Assembly (NCBI GenBank): GCA_026710325.1
Contig: JAPORH010000071.1
Location: forward strand, 1-37,888
From: Litoreibacter sp.
GTDB taxonomy: Bacteria; Pseudomonadota; Alphaproteobacteria; Rhodobacterales; Rhodobacteraceae
DNA length: 37,888 nucleotides
Direction of reading: 5' to 3'
Within the stretch, counting starts at the first letter, position 1. Each line of letters starts with the position of its first letter. Both the position numbers and the translations under genes were made by a program. This document shows, piece after piece, positions 13,809 to 32,454 of the stretch. Below the pieces are notes generated by a model that saw only the letters and a list, made by a program, of their open reading frames with translations, was not told the DNA's origin and made no database searches.

Positions 13809-14903
13809 TTACCCTATTTTTCCTTGATTTCCACCATTTTGCCCGCGGTGCAGGAGGATATGGTCAAGGATCACGCAGGCCATCATCGCCTCACCTACAG
13901 GGACGGCGCGAATGCCCACGCAAGGGTCGTGACGGCCTTTGGTGATGATCTCCGCGGCTTCGCCCGATTTTGTGATGGTCTTGCGCGGAGTCAGAATGGA
14001 GGAGGTCGGCTTCACCGCAAAGCGGACGACGATATCCTGCCCGGTGGAGATGCCCCCTAAAATGCCGCCGGAATGGTTGGAGCTGTATTCAGGGCCGTCA
14101 GGGCCCATGCTGATCTCATCGGCATTGGCTTCGCCTGTCAGCATGGCGGCTTCCATACCGGCGCCTATTTCGACGCCTTTTACGGCGTTGATCGACATCA
14201 TGGCTGCGGCAAGATCGGTGTCGAGCTTGCCATAAACCGGCGCGCCAAGGCCCGCAGGAGCGCCAGAGGCTGTCACTTCGATCATTGCACCGACGGAGCT
14301 GCCGGATTTGCGCAGCCCGTCGAGATAGTCTGCCCAGACATCTGCGGCATCCGCGTCAGGCACCCAGAACGGATTCTGATCGACTTGAGATAGGTCGCGC
14401 GCCGCTGCCTTATGCACGCCCATTTGCACCATATAGCCTGTGATCTGCAGGCCGGGTGCGAGTGCCTTGATAGCTTCACGAGCGACGCCGCCCGCTGCGA
14501 CACGCGCCGCTGTTTCGCGGGCAGAGGAGCGCCCGCCGCCGCGATAGTCGCGTATCCCGTATTTCTGCCAATAGGTGATATCGGCATGGCCGGGGCGGAA
14601 TTTCTCGGCGATATCGCCGTAATCCTTGGAGCGCTGATCGGTGTTTTCGATCATCAACTGGATCGGCGTACCGGTCGTTTTGCCTTCAAACACGCCAGAC
14701 AGAATGCGGACCTGATCGGGCTCCCGCCGTTGGGTCGTGTATTTGTTCTGGCCGGGTTTGCGTTTGTCGAGCCAGACCTGGATCATGGCCTCATCCAACG
14801 GGACATTTGGCGGGCAGCCATCGACCGTAGCGCCCAAGGAAGGCCCGTGGCTCTCACCCCAAGTTGTGACGCGGAAAAGATGGCCAAAGCTGTTGATCGA
14901 CAT
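13809..14903 (-). CDS. aroC: Chorismate synthase
   Basis: 364 residues, full length. It forms chorismate from EPSP with reduced FMN, the last common step to aromatic amino acids. The three family signatures are present: [17 protein letters not shown] near residue 17, [19 protein letters not shown] near 120, and [11 protein letters not shown] near 305. I chose ATG 14903 because CTCAGGAGCT sits just upstream; the frame opens further to 14966 but those residues are not family-like and cover the TTGGCA repeats. It is transcribed away from the small membrane protein gene, with a Rhodobacteraceae-type hairpin repeat between them, and is apparently monocistronic. Confidence 0.96.
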
Positions 14904-15487: not shown

Positions 15488-16372
15488 TCAGCACAAACCC
15501 TGCTCGGCAAGATAACGCACGAACAAAAGTGTCAGGCTTTCGCGGCGTGACTTGTCGGGCCAGACCGCGTAGATTCCCAAGGGCTCCAGCGACCAATCGG
15601 GGAGCAACCTGACAAACTTCCCTTCGGCAACGCCTCGGTCGGCAAGAAACGAAGGAAGTACGGCCGCCCCGATGTTCTCTGTGCACATGTGGTACACCGC
15701 TTCGATGCTGTCGATCTCGATTTGCGCATTTCCCGTCACCTGTTCCATCTTACCGGACGGCGAAGTGAAAGCGGTCGTATCCGAGCGATGCCGGAATCGG
15801 ATCCAGTCCCAGTCCTCCATGTCGGAAGGACGTTTCGGGGTCTTCCGCTGGCGTGCATATTCAGTGCCGGCTACGAGATGGCGCTGCCCTGTCGCGAGTT
15901 TCCGCGACATCATCGAACTGTCGTCAAGCCAACCCACGCGAATGCTCATGTCCAGCCCGTCTTCGATCAGCTGCATGCGGTGATCGGTGTAGATAACCGA
16001 GAACGCCACGTTGGGATGTGACTTGGCAAAGTTCGCAACGGCAGACGTCAGCGGCCCGCCAGCGAGAAACGCCGGGAGCGAAATGCGCAAGGCCCCAACC
16101 GGCTCCAGCGTCAGGGCATTCAGCTCATTCAATCCCGCTTCGGCACTGCGTAACATCTCGACCACCCGGGCGTGGAACATCTTGCCTTCGTTGGTCAAAG
16201 CGATTTTCCGTGTCGTCCGATACAAAAGCGTGACGCCGAGGTAGTCCTCCAACTCCGACACAGTTTCGCTGATCCGAGAGGGTGCCAGCCCCAACGCCTT
16301 GGCCGCTGCGCGGAACGAGCCTTCATCCACGACGCGCGCGAAGATAGCCATTTGTTTCAAGTGGTCGATCAC
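15488..16372 (-). CDS. LysR family transcriptional regulator
   Basis: 294 residues from GTG 16372. The N-terminal winged HTH covers residues 3-62 (MAIFARVVDEGSFRAAAKALGLAP and the ISETVSELEDYLGVTLLYRTTRK that follows), and the effector-binding domain about 90-290. I prefer GTG 16372 over GTG 16408 because LysR proteins usually begin a few residues before this helix; the longer start would place the shared 19-bp element inside the gene. It is divergent from the beta-propeller operon and 117 bp of intergenic DNA separates them. By family habit it probably controls its own gene and the divergent operon; the effector is unknown. Confidence 0.92.
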   Translation of the reverse strand: MIDHLKQMAIFARVVDEGSFRAAAKALGLAPSRISETVSELEDYLGVTLLYRTTRKIALTNEGKMFHARVVEMLRSAEAGLNELNALTLEPVGALRISLPAFLAGGPLTSAVANFAKSHPNVAFSVIYTDHRMQLIEDGLDMSIRVGWLDDSSMMSRKLATGQRHLVAGTEYARQRKTPKRPSDMEDWDWIRFRHRSDTTAFTSPSGKMEQVTGNAQIEIDSIEAVYHMCTENIGAAVLPSFLADRGVAEGKFVRLLPDWSLEPLGIYAVWPDKSRRESLTLLFVRYLAEQGLC

Positions 16373-16395
16373 TGTTCTGCCCCGCGGACCAATCA

Positions 16396-16414
16396 ATTCT
16401 GAAATCACCGAATA
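16396..16414. promoter_or_regulatory. Shared 19-bp element, copy A (LysR / beta-propeller promoter)
   Basis: The 19 bp from 16396 match 18809-18827 at 15 positions with no gaps; the common core is TTCNNAAATCANCGAATA. The two ends form an imperfect TTC...GAA dyad. Copy A lies between the LysR start (16372) and the first operon gene (16489). This is a candidate LysR binding site. Confidence 0.5.
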
Positions 16415-16488
16415 GTCGAATATTTGCCCTTTGCCTAGGCTTCACGGATGGACCCATGTGCAGAGCATGAACAGACCGGAGGACCCCA

Positions 16489-17721
16489 ATGAAACCCAAA
16501 GAGAAGAAAATCGTTGCGACGCTCGTATTGGCGGCAGCAATGACCAGCTCGGCAATGGCACAGGACGCCGCGCTCGACATGAACTTTGCCGGTGCGCTCG
16601 AGTTTTCAGATGATGGCACGCTGTTCGTTGGCGACAACTATAACGGTACGATCTACGCCTTCGACATGACTGGCGCAGCGGCTCCGAGCCAGGTGGCACC
16701 GGTCAACGTCGGCGGCATTGACGTCAAGATTGCCGATGTGCTGGGCGTGCCACGCAGTGCGCTGGCGATCAACGACATGGCTGTGCACCCGGTGAGCGCC
16801 GAGGTCTTCATCTCTGTCACGCGAATTGGCAACTTCGAATCTGCACCAGCAATCGTGAAGGTGACGCAGGATGCCGAGATCGCACTGGTCGATCTGGACG
16901 AAGCGTCGTTTCAGAAGCAAGCACTGACCCATTACCCGGATCAGGAAACCACGTTCCGCCCCCGTGGACTTGGCCAGAACCCGCCGCTTGTGCGTGACAT
17001 CGCAAAGGGCGAAATCAAGCTCAGCTCGCTGGCGATCATGGACATGGAATTCCACGACGGCGAATTGTTCGTCTCGGGCGTCGCATTCGACAACTTCCTG
17101 TCGACCCTGCGGCGCATGCCGTTTCCGTTCACTAACGAACAGGCTGCTGCAAATGTCGAGATGTACCACATCTCGCACGATCAGTTCGAAACCCGCGCTC
17201 CGATCCGCGCCATGTCGATCCAGGAAGTCGACGGCAAGACCCAGCTGGTCGCCGCTTACACCTGCAGCCCGATTGTTCTGATCGAGTTGGACGAGATTCA
17301 GGATGGCGCCAAAATCTCTGCCCGCACGTTGATGGACTATGGCAACGGGCAACCGCTGGACATGGTGTCCTATTCGATGCAGGGCCAAGAGATGCTGTTC
17401 CTGACCAGCAATAGCCGCTCGCCGCACGTCATCCCCGTGTCCAGCCTGAACGGCGCGCAGTCCTACACAAAGGGCGACCTGCCGGAGGGCGGCAAGTCCG
17501 ATATGATGCCGATCATGCCCGTGGGCGACACCGGTAAGGCTGTGATGTTTGACGGTATGTCGCTGCACATCGACAACCTTGGCGCCAACCTCTTCGTTTC
17601 GCTGACGCGAGATATGTACACCGGCAGCCTTAACTTGGACTCCAACTTCAACGGGTTCCCGAACCGGTTGCACAACCTCGTGGCCGAGTTCGACTTCCCG
17701 CAGTACTGGGAAGATAAGTAA
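16489..17721 (+). CDS. Secreted beta-propeller-like protein, unknown function
   Basis: 410 residues with a Sec signal peptide (basic start, hydrophobic core 8-18, cleavage likely AMA|Q at 24/25). The mature part has repeated strand blocks of the NHL/SMP-30/YncE look: FSDDGTLFVGDNYNGTIYAFD near 39, ALAINDMAVHPVSAEVFISV near 86, IMDMEFHDGELFVSGVAF near 184, and ISIQEVDGKTQLVAAYTCSP-like and MSYSMQGQEMLFLTSNSR-like blocks later. No catalytic motif or cofactor site is evident, and I do not recognise a named family. GGAGGACC-type sequence precedes the ATG. The next gene starts 1 bp after the stop, so both are one unit under the LysR-facing promoter. Confidence 0.8.
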   Translation: MKPKEKKIVATLVLAAAMTSSAMAQDAALDMNFAGALEFSDDGTLFVGDNYNGTIYAFDMTGAAAPSQVAPVNVGGIDVKIADVLGVPRSALAINDMAVHPVSAEVFISVTRIGNFESAPAIVKVTQDAEIALVDLDEASFQKQALTHYPDQETTFRPRGLGQNPPLVRDIAKGEIKLSSLAIMDMEFHDGELFVSGVAFDNFLSTLRRMPFPFTNEQAAANVEMYHISHDQFETRAPIRAMSIQEVDGKTQLVAAYTCSPIVLIELDEIQDGAKISARTLMDYGNGQPLDMVSYSMQGQEMLFLTSNSRSPHVIPVSSLNGAQSYTKGDLPEGGKSDMMPIMPVGDTGKAVMFDGMSLHIDNLGANLFVSLTRDMYTGSLNLDSNFNGFPNRLHNLVAEFDFPQYWEDK

Positions 17722-17722
17722 G

Positions 17723-18784
17723 ATGCTTGGCGCACTTCGTCTGATGGCGTCGGCGTTGTGCGCCGCAGGCATCTCAGGGTCGGCTGCCCTCGCCAAAGAG
17801 GGCAGCCTGGTCCTTCCCGAACAACCGAGCGATCCGGTCATCCTCACCTCTGCATCAACGGAAATGTTCCGCGTCTATGTCGGCACGCCTGATGAATGCT
17901 GCGCGGGAAGATCGCCGCTTGCCGGACGTTATGAGCATGAAGGGCCAGGCGTCAGTTTCGCCCCGGCGTTCGACTTCGTCGAAGGCCAACCCTACACCGT
18001 TCTGTCTAACGGTGTCATGACGACCTTCACCCTTGGCGAGGTCGATCAGGCCGCACCCGAAGTTGTTGCGGTCTATCCCAGCGGCGACGCGATCCCGGAA
18101 AACACCTTGCGGTTTTACGTCCATTTTTCTGCACCGATGCAGCCGCATCTGGCGGAAGAAAATATCAAGCTAGTCGATGCGACCGGAGTCGAAGATATTG
18201 CCGCCTTCATGACGTTCAAGCAGGAGCTTTGGAACGCAGACCGTACCCGTTTGACCCTTTTGATGGACCCGGGGCGGATCAAGCGCGGGGTAGCGCAGAA
18301 CCAGTCGCTCGGGCCCGCGCTGTTGGAAGGTCGCAGCTATGCGCTGGTGATTGAAGGCGGGTGGCCCGCGGTTCATGGCGGGCAAAACTCCCCAAGATTT
18401 GAAAAGGCGTTCCACGTCTCCGCGCCGCTCCGAACTTTGCCAAACTTGAAGACTTGGAGCTTGTCCGAGCCGCGCGCGATGACGCGGGCTCCGTTGGTGG
18501 TCAGGTTTGACCGAGCCTTTGACCGGCACGGATTGGCGACCGCGATCACGGTGTTGGATGCCAGCGGTCGGATCATTGATGGGCATGCGAGAGTTGGACG
18601 AGATCAAACAGAATGGCGTTTTGTGCCGCGCGTGCCTTGGGTCGGGAACCATATCGACATCCACGTAGACACGCGGCTTGAAGACGTGGCGGGCAACAAC
18701 TTTCGCGATTTGCTGGATCATGCACTCGGCACTGCGGCGCAATCTGGTGACACTGTGACACGCCGCGTGATGTTAGCCGAGTGA
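17723..18784 (+). CDS. Secreted protein with Ig-like segments, unknown function
   Basis: 353 residues with a signal peptide (cleavage likely ALA|K at 24/25). A conspicuous Cys-Cys pair occurs early in the mature part (TPDECCAGRSPLAGRYEHEG). Two segments have the look of bacterial Ig-like repeats: APEVVAVYPSGDAIPENTLR near 114 with NTLRFYVHFSAPM after it, and APLVVRFDRAFDRHGLATAI near 256. There is a WPAVHGGQ motif near 215. No enzyme signature is visible. It starts 1 bp after the beta-propeller stop and is presumably exported with it; the two may act together in the periplasm. The stop overlaps a downstream inverted repeat by one base. Confidence 0.78.
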   Translation: MLGALRLMASALCAAGISGSAALAKEGSLVLPEQPSDPVILTSASTEMFRVYVGTPDECCAGRSPLAGRYEHEGPGVSFAPAFDFVEGQPYTVLSNGVMTTFTLGEVDQAAPEVVAVYPSGDAIPENTLRFYVHFSAPMQPHLAEENIKLVDATGVEDIAAFMTFKQELWNADRTRLTLLMDPGRIKRGVAQNQSLGPALLEGRSYALVIEGGWPAVHGGQNSPRFEKAFHVSAPLRTLPNLKTWSLSEPRAMTRAPLVVRFDRAFDRHGLATAITVLDASGRIIDGHARVGRDQTEWRFVPRVPWVGNHIDIHVDTRLEDVAGNNFRDLLDHALGTAAQSGDTVTRRVMLAE

Positions 18785-18806
18785 TTGTTCGGATCAGTCG
18801 AACAAT
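18784..18806. promoter_or_regulatory. Inverted repeat with T-N11-A spacing upstream of the DUF2218 operon
   Basis: ATTGTTCG (18784-18791) and CGAACAAT (18799-18806) are perfect inverted arms around a 7-bp spacer. T18789 and A18801 are separated by 11 bases, matching the LysR-box rule T-N11-A. No T-run follows, so an operator is more likely than a terminator. Confidence 0.5.
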
Positions 18807-18808
18807 GA

Positions 18809-18827
18809 TTTCGAAAATCAGCGAATA
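18809..18827. promoter_or_regulatory. Shared 19-bp element, copy B (DUF2218/SnoaL operon promoter)
   Basis: Matches copy A (16396-16414) at 15 of 19 positions in the same orientation relative to its downstream gene. It ends 54 bp before the DUF2218 ATG; copy A ends 74 bp before its ATG. It directly follows the T-N11-A inverted repeat. Confidence 0.5.
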
Positions 18828-18881
18828 CCCAAATAAACCGAGCCGCCTTAGCTCTGGTCCTCACTGCAAAGGACAACGGAC

Positions 18882-19184
18882 ATGAATACGACCGCCTCTT
18901 TTGAAACCGACCGCGCCAGCCGATATCTCAAGGCGCTTTGCCACCACTTTGGCCGCAAGGTTGACGCGAAATGCGACGAGACCGCCGGGTGGGTTCAGTT
19001 TCCGTTTGGCCGCTGCGATTTGAAAGCGGGGGTGGACAAGCTGGAATTGACCGCCAGCGCCGATGACCAACGCCAGCTCACCCAAGTCGTAAAGATCGTC
19101 ACCAGCCATCTAGAGCGTTTCGCCTTCCGCGAAGACCCCAAGCTGGAATGGGCGAGTTCTGAAGCGACACCAAACCATTCCTGA
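18882..19184 (+). CDS. DUF2218 domain-containing protein
   Basis: 100 residues, most of them a DUF2218 domain. The pattern ASRYLKALCHHFGRKVDAKC near residue 12, then GWVQFPFGRCDLKAG near 36 and VVKIVTSHLERFAFREDPKLEW at the end fits the family. Its function is not established; in many genomes it lies near siderophore-interacting or iron-related proteins. No signal peptide. It is the first gene of a six-gene rightward run ending at 22416, with a 27-bp gap to the next gene. The upstream region has the inverted repeat and copy B of the shared element. The heme-type membrane protein at the end of the operon would fit an iron or redox link, but that is inference. Confidence 0.82.
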   Translation: MNTTASFETDRASRYLKALCHHFGRKVDAKCDETAGWVQFPFGRCDLKAGVDKLELTASADDQRQLTQVVKIVTSHLERFAFREDPKLEWASSEATPNHS

Positions 19185-19211
19185 ATAACCCAGCCAACAA
19201 GGAAGATCACC

Positions 19212-20054
19212 ATGACCCTGAAGACACGCTTACTTACCGCGACCCTGGCCGCATTCATGCCAATAGCCGCCTTCGCCGATACAGCCGCCAACAAAGCGCT
19301 CGCCGTTGAGGCGCTAACTGAGACGCTGCTGAAAGGCAATGTTGACTCGGTCGATAAGTACTTCGCCCCTAGCTACATCCAGCATAACCCGGATGTGCCG
19401 AGCGGATCCGAGGCTTTTAAAGGCCTGGTGACCATGCTGAATGACGGCCCCGGAATTGACGCAGAGATCGCGCGCGTCATCGCCGACGATGATATGGTGG
19501 CGATCCATGCGCGCTATACCGGGTTTGGCCCGACGCCGATGATCGCTTTTGACGTGTTCCGCATCGAAAACGGCATGATCGTGGAGCATTGGGACAACCT
19601 GATCGAAGAGCAGCCGTTGAACCCCTCAGGCCGGAGCCAGATTGACGGCGCGACCGAGATCACGGATCTCGACAAGACCGAGGCCAACAAGGCGAAGGTC
19701 ACGGAGTTTCTGACCCGCTCGATGATCAACCACGAAGAGGTCGACATTACCAACTACATCAGCCCGGTCACCTATCTTCAGCACAACCCGATGGTGGCTG
19801 ACGGGCTGGACGGTTTCGGCGCTTTCATGGGCGAGATGGCCAAGCAGGGCATCACCATGGAGTACGCGAAGGTGCATCACGTGATCGGGGAAGGGAACTT
19901 CGTGCTCAGCCTGTCCGAAGGCTCCTTCGGCGGGGAGGCGCAGGCATTCTATGACCTGTTCCGCCTCGAAGATGGTCTAATCGTGGAGCATTGGGACATC
20001 ATCGCGCCGATGCCCGGCCCCGACGCCAAGCACAACGAAGCCGGCAAATTCTGA
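19212..20054 (+). CDS. Secreted tandem SnoaL-like protein (two domains)
   Basis: 280 residues with a signal peptide (cleavage likely AFA|D at 22/23). Two tandem SnoaL/NTF2-fold domains are evident from repeated motifs: YIQHNP near 55 and IVEHWDN near 123, then YLQHNP near 188 and IVEHWDI near 257. The QHNP...EHWD pair is typical of the COG4922-type SnoaL-like group, named for similarity to polyketide cyclases that use the fold for aldol chemistry. Actual activity is unknown. The protein ends in the short tail GKF, shared with the second tandem SnoaL protein in this operon, so the two probably come from a duplication. Confidence 0.85.
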   Translation: MTLKTRLLTATLAAFMPIAAFADTAANKALAVEALTETLLKGNVDSVDKYFAPSYIQHNPDVPSGSEAFKGLVTMLNDGPGIDAEIARVIADDDMVAIHARYTGFGPTPMIAFDVFRIENGMIVEHWDNLIEEQPLNPSGRSQIDGATEITDLDKTEANKAKVTEFLTRSMINHEEVDITNYISPVTYLQHNPMVADGLDGFGAFMGEMAKQGITMEYAKVHHVIGEGNFVLSLSEGSFGGEAQAFYDLFRLEDGLIVEHWDIIAPMPGPDAKHNEAGKF

Positions 20055-20063
20055 TCAACGCGC

Positions 20064-20084
20064 GCGCCCCGGCTGCCGGGGCGC
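20064..20084 (+). other. Strong intra-operon hairpin
   Basis: GCGCCCCGG (20064-20072) pairs perfectly with CCGGGGCGC (20076-20084) around a CTG loop. No T-run follows and transcription probably continues, so it may protect or process the mRNA between the first and second SnoaL-type genes. Confidence 0.5.
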
Positions 20085-20100
20085 AATTCAGGAGCACATC

Positions 20101-20595
20101 ATGCAACGCAGAACCCTTCTCAAAACATCGCTCGGCGCGGCGCTGGCGATCATCCTTGGAACACACGCAGGAGCACAAACAATGGACGCAACAACACAAG
20201 CCAGCTTCGACACGGTCATGGCCTTCATGGGCGCAATGGGCGGCGGCGATATGGAAAAGATGTCGGAGCTTATGGCCGATGACATGGTCTGGCACAATGA
20301 GGGCGACAGCAGCTTGCCCTGGATCGGGGAGACCAAAGGCAAAGAGGCGATTTTCGAGTTCCTCGGCGTCTTCGGCGCAAACCTACAGACCACCAAATGG
20401 GAAAACACCGATTCCTTTGCCTCGGGTGACACCGTGGCCGTGTTTGGCGTGATGAATGGCATTACACCGCATTCCGGTCAGGAAATTGGCGAGTTTACCT
20501 TCGCGCTGCGGGCCAAAGTGCGCGACGGGCAGGTCGTGCTTTGGCACTGGTTCGAAGACAGCTTCGCCGTCAGCCAAGCCTATCACGGCCGTTAA
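20101..20595 (+). CDS. Secreted single-domain NTF2/SnoaL-like protein
   Basis: 164 residues. The N terminus MQRRTLLKTSLGAALAIILG has a twin arginine and a hydrophobic core, so export by Tat or Sec is likely, with cleavage near AGA|Q at 25/26. The rest is one NTF2-fold domain: FMGAMGGGDMEKMSELMADDMVWHNEG (about 42-68, in two pieces), then GKEAIFEFLG near 80, FALRAKVRDGQVVLWHWFED near 135. It lacks the QHNP/EHWD pair of its two neighbours and has WHNEG and LWHWFED instead, so it is a more distant relative. A clear AGGAG precedes the ATG. Function unknown. Confidence 0.8.
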   Translation: MQRRTLLKTSLGAALAIILGTHAGAQTMDATTQASFDTVMAFMGAMGGGDMEKMSELMADDMVWHNEGDSSLPWIGETKGKEAIFEFLGVFGANLQTTKWENTDSFASGDTVAVFGVMNGITPHSGQEIGEFTFALRAKVRDGQVVLWHWFEDSFAVSQAYHGR

Positions 20596-20623
20596 ATCAA
20601 AAACCAAAACGCGAGGGACCATT

Positions 20624-21391
20624 ATGGGACAAGGTTTGGACAATGTGCGCCGGATTTATCTGGAGGGAATCGCAGGCGGCAACGCACGGGAGGCCGTGCA
20701 CGCCTACACCGGGCATCGCTACACGCAGCACTCCACCGGCGTGGCAGATGGGGCTGAGGGGTTCCTTGCGTTTTTTGAGCCTTTCGTCGCGCGCAATCCA
20801 AAGCGCGACATCGAAATCAAACGCATCTTCGAGGACGGGCCTTGGGTCTTTTGCAGCGCCTATCAATCTTTGAACAACGGTGCTGCGCAATGGGTGACGA
20901 TGGACATGTTCCACACCGATACCAGCGGATTAATCCTTGAGCACTGGGACACCATCGCGCCCTACGTCGCAGACACGGCGTCAGGCGAAGACATGGTCGG
21001 CGGTGCGCAAGCGGTCGACACGTCAGCCGATAGTGCCGCCAACAAATCGATTGTTCTCGAATACACGAAACAAGTTCGGCAGGAGAAAAATCTGACCAGT
21101 CTTGACCAGTTCGTCGCGGACGACCTGATCCAGCACGCCGCTGGCATCAAAGCTGGTCGGCAAGGTTTGTCGGGCTGGTTGGGGTCAGCCGAAAATGGCG
21201 ACTACGAGATGCTGTTCAAGCTGATCGGCCAAGGTGATTTCGTGGTCACTTATGGCAAGCGCCACGCCAAAGGCGCGGACATCGCCGTCTTCGATCTCTA
21301 CCGCATCGCTGATGGGAAGATCGCCGAACACTGGATGAACGAAGAACCAATCTCGCCCCGCGAAAGCTGGGGCAACTCCGGCAAATTCTGA
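20624..21391 (+). CDS. Cytoplasmic tandem SnoaL-like protein (two domains)
   Basis: 255 residues from ATG 20624, preceded by GCGAGGGACC. The frame opens back to 20456 but that part overlaps the previous gene and lacks family similarity. There is no signal peptide. Domain 1 (about 5-115) has YTQHSTGVADG and ILEHWDTIAPY; domain 2 (about 138-245) has LIQHAAGIKAG and IAEHWMNEEP. The tail GKF and overall plan match the secreted tandem protein at 19212, which suggests a duplicated pair, one cytoplasmic and one exported. The gap of 23 bp to the following membrane protein gene supports one operon. The catalytic role, if any, is unknown. Confidence 0.83.
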   Translation: MGQGLDNVRRIYLEGIAGGNAREAVHAYTGHRYTQHSTGVADGAEGFLAFFEPFVARNPKRDIEIKRIFEDGPWVFCSAYQSLNNGAAQWVTMDMFHTDTSGLILEHWDTIAPYVADTASGEDMVGGAQAVDTSADSAANKSIVLEYTKQVRQEKNLTSLDQFVADDLIQHAAGIKAGRQGLSGWLGSAENGDYEMLFKLIGQGDFVVTYGKRHAKGADIAVFDLYRIADGKIAEHWMNEEPISPRESWGNSGKF

Positions 21392-21414
21392 CGCCGCTTA
21401 AAAGGACCAAGAGA

Positions 21415-21810
21415 ATGACCAAGCAATACCTCGTCCCCCGCATCCTCATCGGGTTGATGGCCCTCGTCATGGCCGCCGCTACCATTCCGGCCTATGGCAA
21501 CCCGACGTCTAACCCCGGCCTTACAAACCTCGTCGATCCGGCACTGTCACTTGGCGAAACTGCCGGCGCGTTCCTTGGGCGGCAAATGACCGTCATCCTT
21601 GTCGCCTTGATCGGTGCTGTCACCAGCCTGCGTCATCTCGTGATGATCGGTGGGTTCGGCATGATGTTTATGAATGGCCACGACGCCATTCTTATGGGTC
21701 TGCTTGGTGGTCCAGACTTCGCCGTTGCAGCCATCGCCGGGCTGGTCTTCGCTGCGCTTGGAGCTTTGTCGATCTTCCTGGTCTGGCGTCAACGACCCGC
21801 AGCCGGATGA
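21415..21810 (+). CDS. Small integral membrane protein, unknown function
   Basis: 131 residues with about four hydrophobic helices: residues 8-27, 59-78 (VILVALIGAVTSLRHLVMIG), 79-100, and 103-124 (AVAAIAGLVFAALGALSIFL). The loop after helix 1 contains NPTSNPGL. I do not recognise a family. The stop overlaps the start of the ferric-reductase-like gene by ATGA, so the pair are translated together and may form a membrane complex. The start is a good ATG with AAAGGACC upstream. Confidence 0.7.
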   Translation: MTKQYLVPRILIGLMALVMAAATIPAYGNPTSNPGLTNLVDPALSLGETAGAFLGRQMTVILVALIGAVTSLRHLVMIGGFGMMFMNGHDAILMGLLGGPDFAVAAIAGLVFAALGALSIFLVWRQRPAAG

Positions 21811-22416
21811 CCATGTTCAGGTCCCTTTCACCATACTGGCTGTGGGCAGTTCTTTCACTGCCTGCAGCCGGTTTTTTTGCCGCCGCAATCAATTCCAATG
21901 ATCCAGAAATCTACGAGCAGCTGCTTCACCCGACCGGCGAGTTCTCGGCACGCTTCATGATCATCGCAATGCTGGCCTCGCCACTTTTACTGATCCTCAA
22001 AGGTTGGCGCGGACCGCTTTGGCTCAAGAAGAACCGTCGTTATTTCGGCGTCGCCGCCTTTGGCTATGCGGCTTTGCACACCCTGTTCTATTTGGTCGAC
22101 AGTCAAACGATGGAACGCCTGCTCGACGAGTTGTCGCGCTTTTATATCTGGACCGGTTGGCTGGCCTTTCTGGTCTTCATTCCACTGGCAGTGACATCCA
22201 TGGATTTTTTTCGTGCGCCTTCTTGGCCCACGCTGGAAAACCCTGCAACGGTGGACCTATGCAGCGGCGGTCCTGACCTTGCTGCACTGGGCCGCGCTCC
22301 ACGATTGGGGAGGTATCGGTCCTGCGCTTGTCCATTTCGGTCCGCTTGGCCTGCTTGAAGTGTATCGCCTCTGGTACTGGTACTTGCGCCGTCGCACACG
22401 AGTTTCGGTCAGATAG
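21807..22416 (+). pseudogene. Ferric-reductase-like transmembrane protein, frame broken at a T7 run
   Basis: The first 135 residues read as a heme-type transmembrane protein of the ferric-reductase-like/MsrQ group: helices about 8-27, 50-64, 77-96 (YFGVAAFGYAALHTLFYLVD with a histidine) and 112-131. At 22205-22211 there are seven T. Frame 0 then runs off-family to a stop at 22358. In the +1 frame the family sequence resumes at once (VRLLGPRWKTLQR, then WTYAAAVLTLLHWA with a second histidine, and a final helix) to 22416. With six T the frame is intact at 202 residues, ending in a basic tail. So this is either a real one-base insertion, a sequencing error, or slippage. Confidence 0.75.
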
Positions 22417-22739: not shown

Positions 22740-23558
22740 TTACTCTTCCTTGCCTTTGGCGGCGGCCCAGATGCGCTTGTTGGTGAGGTAGAGCAGCACT
22801 GAGAGCACTGTCAGGAAGATCACGGCGACGAAGCCGGTTTCTTTACGCGCGATCAGCTTGGGCTCTGCCGTCCACATCAGGAAGGCGGCGAGGTCTTTGG
22901 AGGTGCTTTCCAGATCGTTTGGTGCGCCGTCGTCAAACTCGACATCCTCTCCGTAAAGCGGGGGTGCCATGGAGATCCAGCCGCCTGGGAAGGCCTTGTT
23001 TTCGTACAAGGTCACGCCAGCTTCCTCTTTCTCCTCACCGGTGTAACCGGTCAGGAGGGAGGCGATGTATTCCGGTCCGCCCATGCCTTTCAGCAACTGG
23101 TTGATGCCAGTGCCGTTCGGGCCGCTGAAGCCTGCGCGCGCTTTCGCCATCAAGGACAGGTCGGGAGCGCCAGCCGAGTTAACCGCTGGGAAGTGGTCGG
23201 TCGGTGCAAGCGCGCGGAATTCGTCCAGTTCAGCATCGTAGAGATGCATGTTCGCGCCTTCATCGGAGACGAACATGGCATCCACATAGGCTTTCATCTG
23301 GTCTTCCGGCAGGTGCGGACCGCCCGGATCAGCCAAGGTGCGCAGGGGCACGAATTTCAGCCCGTGACAGCCGGAGCAAATCTCGGTGTATACCTTAAGA
23401 CCGCGCTGCAGCTGGTTTTCGTCATAGGTGCCGAAAGGGCCTTCGAAGGAGAAGTCGTAGTCATAGACCTCTCCCGCGCCGCCCGCCGCGAAGGCGGGGG
23501 TGGAAAGCATCACGGCAGCCGCGGTTGCGAGTGAGAGTTTTTTGAGCATTGGTTTCAT
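22740..23558 (-). CDS. petC: Cytochrome c1 of the bc1 complex
   Basis: 272 residues. A signal peptide (cleavage about AFA|A at 24/25) is followed by the heme-binding CSGCH near residue 58 ([15 protein letters not shown]). The Met ligand is probably in ISMAPPLYG near 196. A C-terminal transmembrane helix (about 242-260, [19 protein letters not shown]) anchors the protein in the inner membrane. It passes electrons from the Rieske protein to soluble cytochrome c. It is the third gene of petABC, 6 bp after cytochrome b, with a terminator 22 bp downstream. Length and plan agree with Rhodobacter cytochrome c1. Confidence 0.97.
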
Positions 23559-23564
23559 TTCCTC

Positions 23565-24878
23565 TTACTCAGCAGGTTGCGCAGCGGGTGCTTCACCGCC
23601 TGGCTTGGACTTCGGGTAGTGGGCCGAGAAGTCCTCCTCGATCGTGGCCGGACGCGGCAGCGGTTTCTCGATCACACCCAGAAGCGGCATGATCACCAGG
23701 AAGTAGGCGAACCAATAGATCGTGCCCAGAAGCGAGATCAACGGGATCAGGCCTTCCGCCGGCATCGCGCCCGCCCACATCAGGACGAAGAAGTCGATGA
23801 CCAGCAGCAGGAACCACCATTTGAACATTGGGCGGTAGCGGCCGGAGCGCACCGATGATGTATCGAGCCACGGTGCCAGCGCCATGACAGCGATGGCGCC
23901 GAACATGGCCAACACGCCCAGGAACTTCGCATCCAGGAAGAGGAAGTCAAAGGTGATGGCGCGCAGGATCGCGTAGAATGGCAGGAAGTACCATTCAGGC
24001 ACAATGTGGGCCGGTGTCACCAGGGCGTCTGCCTCGATGTAGTTATCGGGGTGGCCCAGATAGTTCGGCATGAAGCCCACGATGGCGAAGAACACCACCA
24101 TGATAACGGCCAGCGCGAACAGGTCCTTGATCACGAAGTAGGGCCAGAATGGCAGCGTGTCTTTCTCGGCCTCCTCTTTCGAGGTGCGGCGCACTTCAAC
24201 ACCGGTTGGGTTGTTGTTGCCCGTGGTGTGGAAGGCCCAGATGTGAAGGATCACAAGGCCCGCAATCACGAATGGCAGCAGGTAGTGCAGCGAGAAGAAG
24301 CGGTTCAGCGTGGCATTGTCCACCGCGGGCCCACCCAGAAGCCAGGTTTGCAGCGCTTCGCCGATGCCCGGGATCGCGCCGAACAGGCCGGTGATCACGG
24401 TGGCACCCCAGAAGGACATCTGACCCCATGGCAGCACGTAGCCCATAAAGGCGGTGCCCATCATGGCGAGGTAGATGATCATGCCGATGATCCACGTGAC
24501 CTCACGCGGGGCTTTGTACGAGCCGTAGTACAGGCCGCGGAAAATGTGCAGATACACGGCGACAAAGAAGAGCGATGCGCCGTTTTGGTGCAGGTAGCGC
24601 AGCATGTAGCCGCCATTCACGTTGCGCATGATGTGCTCAACGGAGGCAAAGGCCTCATCAACATGCGGCGTGTAATGCATCGCCAGCACGATGCCGGTGA
24701 TGATTTGCAGCGCGAGACAGAAGGTCAGCACGATGCCCCAGATCCACATCCAGTTGAGGTTCTTGGGGGTGGGGATCATCAAAGTGTCGTAAGCAAGGCC
24801 GATGATGGGAAGGCGCTTTTGCAGCCATTTCTCCCCGCCGGTCTTGGGTTCATAATGGTCGTGTGGAATACCAGCCAT
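23565..24878 (-). CDS. petB: Cytochrome b of the bc1 complex
   Basis: 437 residues, matching Rhodobacter capsulatus cytochrome b in length. About eight to nine transmembrane helices. Heme-ligand histidines lie in [10 protein letters not shown] near 66 plus the [16 protein letters not shown] helix near 112, and in [20 protein letters not shown] near 195. The quinol-site PEWY motif is present ([17 protein letters not shown], near 292-308). It oxidises ubiquinol and carries electrons across the membrane through two b hemes. It lies 15 bp after petA and 6 bp before petC, in a classic fbc/pet operon order. Confidence 0.97.
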
Positions 24879-24893
24879 TTGTATTTTCTCCCT

Positions 24894-25451
24894 TTAACCG
24901 AGTGTCAGTGTGTCTCCATCAAAGGCGGCAACAGGAACGGGCAGGTTCTTAGGCGCAGGGCCTTTGCGAATACGTCCCGAGGTGTCGTAGTGCGAGCCGT
25001 GGCACGGGCAGAACCAGCCACCGAAGTCACCTGCATCGCCCAGAGGTACACAGCCCAGGTGGGTACAAACGCCGATCATGACGAGCCACTCACCAGCTTC
25101 ATCGAGGGAGCGGTTTTCGTCAGAGGCGTCAGCACCAGCAAGGTTTGCGTTCTCAGCGCTTTGATCTGGCAGCTCGCTCAGGTCCACGTCGCGGGCGGCG
25201 GCAATCTCTTCTTCCGTACGACGACGGATGAAGACCGGCTTACCTAGCCATTTCACCGTCAACTGCGACCCGGGCTCGATGCCGGAGACGTCGACGTCAA
25301 TCGATGACAACGCTTGCACATCGGCAGATGGGTTCATTTGGTTGATCAGGGGCCACACTGCGGCACCTGCAGTCACCGCACCCGCGCCGGCGGTTGCGTA
25401 ATATAGAAAGTCGCGGCGTGTGTTACCTGCGTGATCGTCTGCGTTGGACAC
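24894..25451 (-). CDS. petA: Rieske iron-sulfur protein of the bc1 complex
   Basis: 185 residues from GTG 25451. A twin-arginine signal-anchor (TRRDFLYY near 13) is followed by one transmembrane helix (about 20-38) and the soluble Rieske domain, with cluster motifs CTHLGC near 127 and CPCHGSHYD near 147, plus the two disulfide cysteines. GTG 25451 gives MSNADDHAG, which aligns with the start of Rhodobacter Rieske proteins, and GGAGA lies 6 bp upstream. An ATG at 25457 would add two residues and leave no proper ribosome-site spacing. It is the first gene of petABC, divergent from trmL. Confidence 0.95.
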
Positions 25452-25563
25452 GGACATTCTCCATTAGCTGATCGATGCGCGCGAGACCCACCGAGCAAAT
25501 TTAATACACCCCGCGCGGAATCCGGATCGGGGCTCTCGCGCGGTTGATAATGCGAAGGTAGGT

Positions 25564-31677: not shown

Positions 31678-32454
31678 TCAAGCGCCGCTTAGGATAAAGG
31701 ACTGGCTGACCACACTTCGGACCTGAACGTCGAAGCAAGGCTTTGCGATGATCAAAACCGGCTCGCTCGTCGCACCTGTCAGGTAGTGCTCCGGGTAGGG
31801 CGATACGAAAACGGCGTCGAGCTTCGGATGCCGCGCCTGCAGCGCAGAGACCGCCGCGCGACCGGAGGAGCCTTCGGCCAGCTCGGTGCTGGCGATGATG
31901 AGTTCCGGCGCCATGTCCCGCCCCATTTCAATGGCTTGGGCGGCCGTGCGCGCCACGCCGGTTACCTCGCACCCCATCTCGCTGACGCAATTGGCCATGT
32001 CCATGGCGATCAACGTGTCATCTTCGATCAGCAAGACGCGTTTTCGGGGGCGATAGGGCATTTCAAGCAGGGCCGTTTCGAACAAGGCGGGGACGGATTC
32101 AGGCTCAATGCGGAGGATCAAGGCGATATCTTCAAAAACGAATTCTTCGATCGTTCGGAGAAGGAGGACTTCGCGGGAATGGCGTGACACCTGCCGCATG
32201 CGGTTGCGCGCCGCCACTTGGCTGAAGGAAAGCATCGGGGGGTCTTCCCATATGTCAGCAAGGGCGCGAAACAGCTCGATCCGGATGGCACGCACGGAGA
32301 CATCTAAGATTTTTGGGCGGGCCAATTGGCGCGCCCGATTGGCAAGCTGATCGCCCGTGCGCCGGCACCCCGACAAGGCACGACCGTAGCGCCGCAGAAA
32401 GGGCATCACCGCGTCAAGAATATCTCCTGCTGCCCGGCTGACGCCGTCGGCCAT
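31678..32454 (-). CDS. PhyR-like protein with degenerate receiver (no phosphoacceptor Asp)
   Basis: 258 residues in the PhyR layout. The N-terminal sigma-factor-like domain covers about 1-130 (PFLRRYGRALSGCRRTGDQL near 18-37; EVLLLRTIEEFVFEDIALIL near 95). The C-terminal receiver starts at 138 with VLLIEDDTLIAMDM. In working PhyR the phosphoacceptor Asp lies in LADIQLADGSSG; here the segment is LIIASTELAEGSSG with Ser189 (codon AGC at 31888-31890). The acidic pocket (E144, D145, D146), the switch Ser218 and Lys238 remain. PhyR normally binds NepR after phosphorylation and frees EcfG. No nepR or ecfG neighbour is present. ATG 32454 has GAGGT upstream. Confidence 0.85.
   Translation of the reverse strand: MADGVSRAAGDILDAVMPFLRRYGRALSGCRRTGDQLANRARQLARPKILDVSVRAIRIELFRALADIWEDPPMLSFSQVAARNRMRQVSRHSREVLLLRTIEEFVFEDIALILRIEPESVPALFETALLEMPYRPRKRVLLIEDDTLIAMDMANCVSEMGCEVTGVARTAAQAIEMGRDMAPELIIASTELAEGSSGRAAVSALQARHPKLDAVFVSPYPEHYLTGATSEPVLIIAKPCFDVQVRSVVSQSFILSGA

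Follow-up and report, generated by a model that had tools for sequence, protein, structure and literature searches.

A putative LysR-controlled regulon in Litoreibacter sp. with a 52-bp operator-like site ahead of two gene units and a secreted propeller and Ig-like protein pair

In Escherichia coli, hydroquinone induces yhaK, a pirin-like gene divergent from the gene for the LysR-type regulator YhaJ, through that regulator; the authors tie YhaJ to quinol degradation, and the YhaJ box is reported as TCA-N7-TGA (PMC5031710). Here we analyze a LysR locus of the marine bacterium Litoreibacter sp. at positions 15488-22416 of contig C142, the whole of which (37,888 bp, from a genome of 4.19 Mb in 240 contigs) is referred to below as the window. 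The original prediction, made from the DNA alone, was of a LysR regulator divergent from a secreted beta-propeller protein (hereafter Prop) and a secreted Ig-like protein (IgL), followed by six tightly spaced genes; all nine genes are present in the open reading frame calls and translations of the window, and Pfam supports the LysR, DUF2218, SnoaL and ferric-reductase assignments, with the correction that the last gene, encoding a ferric-reductase-like membrane protein (FRL), is frameshifted. The comparison of gaps across loci revealed a 52-bp element common to the LysR-Prop gap and the gap between IgL and the first of the six genes (DUF2218), so that the same operator-like site stands ahead of both units, as suits the single LysR-controlled locus that had been proposed. 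Co-regulation of both units by one LysR is a well-supported prediction.

The likeness of the two gaps was first noticed in the window itself, and the sites were registered by eye. In the cross-class scans, the matrix was derived from sites of the other unit in other genomes, and the window and its close relative L027 were both left out when either was scanned (L, G and C numbers designate loci, genomes and contigs, respectively); this design guards against mere orthology as the source of an operator match. The true site ranked first in all 14 scans of seven loci, and operators 1 and 2 of the window each ranked first among 75,669 positions. The upstream half of the element is an imperfect inverted repeat, TTCGG-N5-CCGAA, forming a T-N11-A box of the LysR-type transcriptional regulator (LTTR) kind; the repeat was read by eye and is imperfect at operator 1. 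Thus, the arrangement expected of an LTTR, a T-N11-A repeat upstream of a divergent target, is found by sequence, with the 52-bp site in both intergenic regions. Behind the site, at a fixed spacing, lies a −10-like TAnnnT element (T63 and A64 each in 13/14 and T68 in 11/14 model sites).

A sequence-only model of 14 sites (R1), both window operators among them, gave 46.3 bits for operator 1 (the best match in its own genome) and 41.2 bits for operator 2 (the second best), both being training sites of R1, and 15.5 bits for the next match. The weak or chance matches in this genome lie on C173 (15.5 bits), C111 (12.5 bits) and C20 (8.4 bits); no related gene was recognised alongside those on C173 and C111. 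When R1 was run on 36 sources chosen from L001-L127 and the window, 26 matches were obtained at E ≤ 1, namely, the 14 model sites and 12 others. Seven non-model matches with E ≤ 0.0012 are located before Prop (L028, L040 and L063), before DUF2218 (L108), behind IgL (L028), before the gene for a 185-aa protein of L040, and in the gap of L063 between LysR and the gene for a siderophore-interacting flavoreductase (SIP). A non-model site on the SIP side of L030 has an E-value of 0.002, and L034 has a weak match on the minus strand (E 0.05). The Prop site and the LysR/SIP site of L063, at 18.2 and 40 bits, are about 10 kb apart. A LysR match is present in 37 loci. In all 14 whose LysR is at least 61% identical to that of the window, a positive site lies near the LysR start (scores 4.9 to 59, with three of the 14 at only 4.9 to 8.2); six of these 14 had contributed to the matrix and were scored with their own sites removed from it. 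By contrast, 22 of the 23 loci with a LysR at most 38% identical score negative, the exception being L045. The candidate operator tracks LysR identity. We recognised no paper describing the locus, the operator or the Prop-IgL pair among open-licence PMC articles.

Two loci carry the site in disrupted surroundings. L026 8892-10112 (in G063) is a decayed remnant with a split LysR and fragments of Prop and SnoaL genes, where the operator is still present (38.9 bits). In L033 1467-7017, two operator-like sites score 21.8 and 36.4 in the matrix scan, and Prop is parted from a shortened IgL by other genes, much as an insertion into the cluster would leave them.

The segment is bounded by aroC (13809-14903, minus strand) and the genes for cytochrome c1, cytochrome b and the Rieske protein (22740-25457, minus strand), flanks being named by eye, and contains the following features.

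15488..16372, minus strand: LysR-type regulator, 294 aa from GTG 16372; PF00126 and PF03466 above gathering
16374..16425, plus strand: operator 1, with the TTCTG-N5-CGGAC box, the TTCTGAAAT box and CGAATAGTCGAAT; −10-like TAGGCT at site positions 63-68
16489..17721, plus strand: Prop, 410 aa, beta-propeller protein with a signal peptide (by eye); AlphaFold2 (AF2) model
17723..18784, plus strand: IgL, 353 aa, Ig-like domains, signal peptide (by eye); AF2 model
18787..18838, plus strand: operator 2, with the TTCGG-N5-TCGAA box, ATTTCGAAAAT and GCGAATACC; −10-like TTAGCT within one base of the operator 1 spacing
18882..19184, plus strand: DUF2218 protein, 100 aa; PF09981 at E 7.5e-29, 100.4 bits against a gathering threshold of 29.1
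19212..20054, plus strand: tandem SnoaL protein with a signal peptide, 280 aa; PF12680 in two stretches; PDB 3g0k at E 2.8e-17
20101..20595, plus strand: single SnoaL/NTF2-fold protein with a Tat-like signal, 164 aa; PF12680 (SnoaL_2) at E 5.3e-16
20624..21391, plus strand: tandem SnoaL protein without a signal peptide, 255 aa; PF07366 in two stretches (Pfam run from 20618); the L017 copy is 76% identical
21415..21810, plus strand: Mem131, a 131-aa membrane protein without a Pfam or NCBIfam match
21807..22416, plus strand: FRL, ferric-reductase-like membrane protein; PF01794 (Ferric_reduct) at E 1.6e-11; the frame stops at 22358

The six-gene unit has gaps of 27, 46, 28 and 23 bp and one ATGA overlap, and the IgL-DUF2218 gap is 97 bp. 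Alternative starts of LysR are GTG 16408 (306 aa) and ATG 16351 (287 aa); GTG 16372 (or ATG 16351) is more likely than GTG 16408, because operator 1 would fall within the gene if the latter were used. LysR is 294 aa long in L016, L017, L028, L030, L031 and L035, and 306 aa in L027, by our own simple gene caller, which was used for the relatives in place of a standard program and from which some wrong starts and small genes are to be expected. The regulator has both domains of the family (HTH_1, 70.2 bits with a cut-off of 26.6; LysR_substrate, 114.9 bits with a cut-off of 28), and all three SnoaL-fold proteins belong to the SnoaL-like group by PF12680 above gathering, both tandem ones also by PF07366. 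In the Pfam scan, Prop and Mem131 have no hit and IgL only a sub-threshold match to Big_5. Weak PDB relatives of the single SnoaL protein are limonene-1,2-epoxide hydrolase and the IdmH cyclase (E ~5e-6), and it alone has a weak, sub-threshold Pfam match for a Tat signal (E 0.009); ‘secreted’ denotes throughout a signal-peptide-like N-terminus judged by eye. The nine-gene order recurs in L027, with variants in L029, L030, L031, L035 and L041, which is more than chance. Elsewhere in the window, at 31678-32454, lies a gene for a protein resembling, by eye, a PhyR-type general stress response regulator.

From 84,980 species genomes, a scan yielded 154 encoding stretches, and the top 80 of them (79 loci) were retained; together with the window, 80 loci were examined, with a called Prop in 78 (all except L059 and L071). 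In the 74 of these with more than 700 bp downstream of Prop (all except L055, L060, L089 and L090), IgL lies within 1.7 kb downstream on the same strand in 73, the exception being L105; the gap is at most 315 bp in 70 loci and 1.3-1.5 kb in three. Prop and IgL are a near-obligate pair. Among 198 genomes of the family, Prop occurs in 11 and IgL in 12, ten genomes being common and the genome analyzed here being in both sets, and the two genes are neighbours in the window as well as at ten full-length loci of the other nine shared genomes (two in G001). Outside the shared ten are G063, with the decayed remnant; G084, with a short fused remnant; and G145, where IgL stands without a called Prop, beside genes for LysR, CDGSH/glutamate synthase, hemerythrin and glutathione S-transferase (GST). 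When the comparison is confined to the 67 loci that have a single full-length pair, the identities of Prop and IgL are correlated (r = 0.90, reached in 0 of 500 permutations), a correlation that is also produced by common descent alone. Prop is a rare family, present in 4 of 398 genomes drawn from across the phylum, including the one analyzed here, and the distribution of the pair is patchy, spanning Alpha- and Gammaproteobacteria, Bacteroidota and Cyanobacteria beside several kinds of regulators.

The propeller and Ig-like folds that had been proposed are borne out by the AF2 models, with a mean pLDDT of 88.5 for Prop and 91.3 for IgL. Among the best 50 Foldseek matches in the PDB, those of Prop are mostly propellers (plexin sema, WD and NHL domains, Drp35 and the RPA3624 lactonase), all of them loose (TM-score at most 0.43, rmsd above 11), and those of IgL are mostly multi-Ig proteins and L,D-transpeptidases. 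PDB sequence profiles gave no convincing relative of Prop and, for IgL, only a short stretch (E 0.0015). None of the 78 Prop members has a significant Pfam family, the best E-value being 0.026, and three match SBBP, a beta-propeller repeat, at E 0.1 or worse; Prop-IgL is an undescribed secreted pair of a family without a Pfam model. With such loose structural matches and no significant Pfam match, Prop was not accepted as an SMP-30 lactonase. Residues invariant in all 78 sequences include D96, H227, H230, E234 and C259, and those nearly invariant include D49, H100, D185, E224, Q232, R236 and D291, a pattern that would be in keeping with a polar binding site or a metal site. In Saprospiraceae/Bacteroidia, L065 10016-13683 and L066 9998-13616 carry two tandem Prop genes and then one IgL. 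An Alginate_exp-type outer-membrane porin gene is located upstream of Prop in the Bacteroidota-type loci L075, L079, L081, L085, L089, L095 and L100, often with a Crp-type regulator (Pfam on the L100 copies), and between Prop and IgL in L067, hinting at transport across the outer membrane.

The locus appears modular. Without Prop-IgL, a LysR divergent from DUF2218 and SnoaL genes, variably with NmrA and FRL, is found in L106, L107, L108 and L110; the single SnoaL protein occurs in 20 and Mem131 in seven of the 198 family genomes, the genome of the window being among the latter. The window joins a Prop-IgL module and a DUF2218/SnoaL module. Scattering of the genes in related genomes would have spoken against the original prediction: the gene order and its variants are kept in relatives, but the two modules also occur apart, and even then can carry the same operator (L063). 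Within 5 kb of Prop in 78 loci, regulators of a broad LysR cluster were found in 33, another LysR cluster in nine, TetR in six and Crp-type regulators in seven; the broad cluster holds both the window LysR and that of a distant Prop-IgL clade. Matches to aroC and the bc1 genes are 3.4 kb apart in G171 (same genus), 0.2 kb apart in G001 and 3.5 kb apart in G190, and in none of these three genomes does the DNA in between match the LysR-FRL segment. Such cluster genes as G001 has share the contig at a distance of about 420 kb, and in G190 most of them lie on a different contig. In L027, from an uncultured Litoreibacter, Prop is 91% and LysR 98% identical to those of the window, and the flanking genes differ, as judged by gene lengths and clusters. 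The LysR-FRL segment thus looks acquired or moved. In a Prop tree obtained with a quick method from 76 rows, many of them metagenome bins, Granulosicoccaceae and Enterovibrio are mixed with Rhodobacteraceae; Prop-IgL seems to have passed between distantly related bacteria, although this pattern is no proof of transfer and bin contamination could contribute.

A kinship of Mem131 with DUF4267, suggested by gene position in L068/L069, was rejected, since a profile comparison with very few sequences gave no match. Two further loci of the genome to which the window belongs include related genes. In L003 (G000:C204, 456-2355), a second LysR, 50% identical to that of the window, is divergent from a metallo-beta-lactamase-fold protein (PF00753, Tat-like start), similar to proteins in several Prop loci; in L002 (G000:C104, 1449-2687), a SnoaL-type paralogue is divergent from an HxlR-type-like regulator gene (both by eye).

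Electron delivery by the two membrane proteins, another part of the original prediction, is not supported for this strain. Alignment of the DNA with the intact L027 copy places a frameshift of FRL at about 22205-22215, in or beside a T-run, the C-terminal part continuing in another frame to 22416; FRL is also intact in L017, and the frameshift may reflect either genuine decay or an artefact of assembly. SIP was not found in the genome of the window, in a search without a positive control, whose empty answer shows little; some relatives hold SIP together with an intact FRL. The electron branch looks impaired here.

Clues to the chemistry come from genes that carry the site elsewhere. R1 identified 16 sites at E ≤ 0.01 in 11 of the 198 family genomes, and six of the nine loci annotated fit the proposed regulon: G071 (LysR/DUF2218), three sites of G007 (LysR/DUF2218-FRL-NmrA, DUF2218-metallo-beta-lactamase, and an OsmC protein whose N-terminus resembles a signal peptide), G052 (LysR/DUF2218-GST-NmrA) and the G063 remnant. 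By the titles of PDB sequence matches, the NmrA partner in L106 is nearest to triphenylmethane reductase and E. coli YtfG, which we take to be QorB; operator-bearing units elsewhere thus include a QorB-like reductase, GST, OsmC, SIP and DUF2218. In the distant clade, where gene families were tested on the L025 and L099 copies, the L025 GST is YqjG-like (E 7e-132 to 3r3e; 61% identical to E. coli YqjG). Six distant-clade loci carry such a glutathionyl-hydroquinone-reductase-like GST (L077, L092, L093, L097, L099 and L102), together with CDGSH/glutamate-synthase and hemerythrin genes in 6/6 and with a pirin gene within 5 kb in 3/6; in L092, L097 and L099, the pirin, CDGSH/glutamate-synthase and hemerythrin genes stand with the GST in one fixed order. 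L099 also encodes a catechol-type intradiol dioxygenase and an iron-type alcohol dehydrogenase (Fe-ADH). A small-molecule role of the locus, suggested previously without naming a chemical class, is plausible, and the operator-bearing genes together with the distant neighbourhoods point to quinone-like electrophiles.

The gene order, the shared operator, the operator-LysR correspondence and the Prop-IgL pairing are demonstrated here at the level of sequence. The explanation that we prefer, and consider to have an even chance of being correct, is that they make up one LysR-controlled stress regulon of two operator-driven units, directed at quinone-like electrophiles and equipped with a secreted arm. 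LysR would bind the 52-bp site through the LTTR-type inverted repeat in its upstream half, and the downstream half (TTCTGAAAT...CGAATA) would lead to the −10-like element, which is the layout to be expected of a LysR promoter activated by a ligand. The copy in the LysR-Prop gap would drive Prop-IgL and probably LysR itself, and that in the IgL-DUF2218 gap the six-gene unit. The inducer might be a redox-active electrophile of the quinone or aromatic type, which the SnoaL-fold proteins would bind or convert; in relatives, SIP and FRL may pass electrons towards the membrane. Prop-IgL would act outside the cytoplasm on the inducer compound or its damage. It is also possible, though we hold this only tentatively, that Prop-IgL is a self-contained two-protein envelope device which captures or destroys a diffusible quinone-like electrophile before it enters the cell; such a device would have moved from phylum to phylum, mostly among marine bacteria, and been connected each time to a local regulator sensing that chemistry (three LysR clades, TetR and Crp-type), and in the window lineage it would have been wired into the DUF2218/SnoaL regulon by acquiring its operator.

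Several observations weigh against a LysR regulon for quinone-like electrophiles. Both sites of L041 score low in spite of ranking first (5.0 and −7.0, the latter on the DUF2218 side), and the LysR of L045, a locus with a positive site, is only 33% identical to that of the window. At three of the nine annotated R1 loci (L134, L135 and L137, in G192, G003 and G026), none of the genes near the site is related, and no operator was found in the scanned loci of the distant clade (L022, L025, L092, L099 and others), whose LysR proteins, tried as YhaJ orthologues and rejected, are 25-33% identical to YhaJ, three of four being aligned only partly. Redox-type families, modelled from the very loci tested, occur within 5 kb of Prop in 12 and at 5-10 kb in 10 of the 39 loci whose flanks extend for 9 kb or more on each side of it (26 vs. 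12 in all 78 loci, where contig ends shorten the far zone); with full flanks the near count hardly exceeds the far one, and therefore the quinone reading has no support from set-level enrichment. DUF2218 and SIP equally suggest iron handling. The assignment to quinone-like electrophiles, the best of several readings, is close to a toss-up.

Under iron or metallophore handling, DUF2218, SIP and FRL would take up or reduce an iron chelate, and the SnoaL proteins and Prop-IgL would act on the chelator in the periplasm, by binding or processing it. SIP is indeed encoded in the operator-bearing loci L029, L030, L035 and L063 (PF08021/PF04954 on the L016 copy), and DUF2218 is reported in a lanthanophore locus and beside siderophore uptake genes (PMC11317620). 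However, Pfam identifies no TonB receptor, siderophore synthetase or ABC transporter family among the nine window genes, the search for SIP in this genome came up empty (with the limit given above), and operator-bearing units elsewhere hold QorB-like, GST and OsmC genes, so that we consider this explanation unlikely. Much the same standing is given to a pathway that would break down or modify one particular aromatic or lactone compound, with Prop as an enzyme, e.g. a propeller lactonase, and no stress response involved. Intradiol-dioxygenase-like genes in L035 (by Pfam), L032 and L040 (by clustering), the catechol-type dioxygenase and Fe-ADH of L099 (in L021/L092 by clustering), the Drp35 and RPA3624 lactonases among the Foldseek matches of Prop, and a SnoaL fold suited to cyclase or hydrolase chemistry are all compatible with it; gene content, however, varies strongly between loci, plexins rank above the loosely matching lactonases, and Pfam gives no significant match for Prop. 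Repair of oxidised periplasmic proteins, with an MsrQ-like FRL supplying the electrons and the other genes accessory, appears highly improbable: MsrQ is the best NCBIfam hit of FRL, but its 41.8 bits, obtained with the truncated frame, are far under the cut-off of 130, so that FRL was not accepted as MsrQ, and FRL, frameshifted here, was not seen in many Prop loci. No MsrP-like gene was noticed by eye among the called genes of the window, and no search was aimed at one.

The analysis replaces vague annotations with a candidate regulon in which a defined regulator and a defined operator are joined by two promoters and a limited set of target genes. The function of Prop-IgL is probably general because the conserved pair is common to distantly related bacteria, and if the inducer is quinone-like, the locus would extend quinone defence to the envelope side.

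Among known systems, the window LysR has as its closest PDB sequence 3hhg, presumably CrgA, and as its best NCBIfam hits YafC and AaeR; it shares both Pfam domains with regulators of this type but falls far below the equivalog cut-offs (176.9 vs. 470 and 151.6 vs. 425 bits). The SnoaL-fold proteins resemble SnoaL-like and ester cyclase proteins in their PF12680/PF07366 domains and differ in that two are tandem and two exported (by eye). FRL shares PF01794 with MsrQ and other ferric-reductase-like heme membrane proteins and differs from MsrQ in its low score, its frameshift and the surroundings described above. With SMP-30/Drp35-type lactonases, Prop has in common the propeller fold, whereas it has no significant Pfam match and carries the five invariant residues named above. 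The YhaJ regulon of E. coli (yhaJ, yhaK and yqjF, with yqjG as a neighbour) likewise has a LysR divergent from its target, responsive to hydroquinone (PMC5031710), and pirin-like and glutathionyl-hydroquinone reductase genes are found both in the YhaJ stretch, with yqjG close by, and in the distant Prop-IgL clade. In contrast, the YhaJ box reported there is unlike the operator of the window LysR, no gene annotated as Prop-, IgL-, SnoaL- or DUF2218-like is present in the 12-kb yhaJ stretch of E. coli K-12, and the window LysR, at 24.6% identity, does not qualify as a YhaJ orthologue. With non-orthologous regulators and no operator in the distant clade, the likeness to YhaJ is one of gene content only. 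We would call the locus a detoxification regulon under LysR control that includes a hitherto undescribed secreted pair, and not a new principle.

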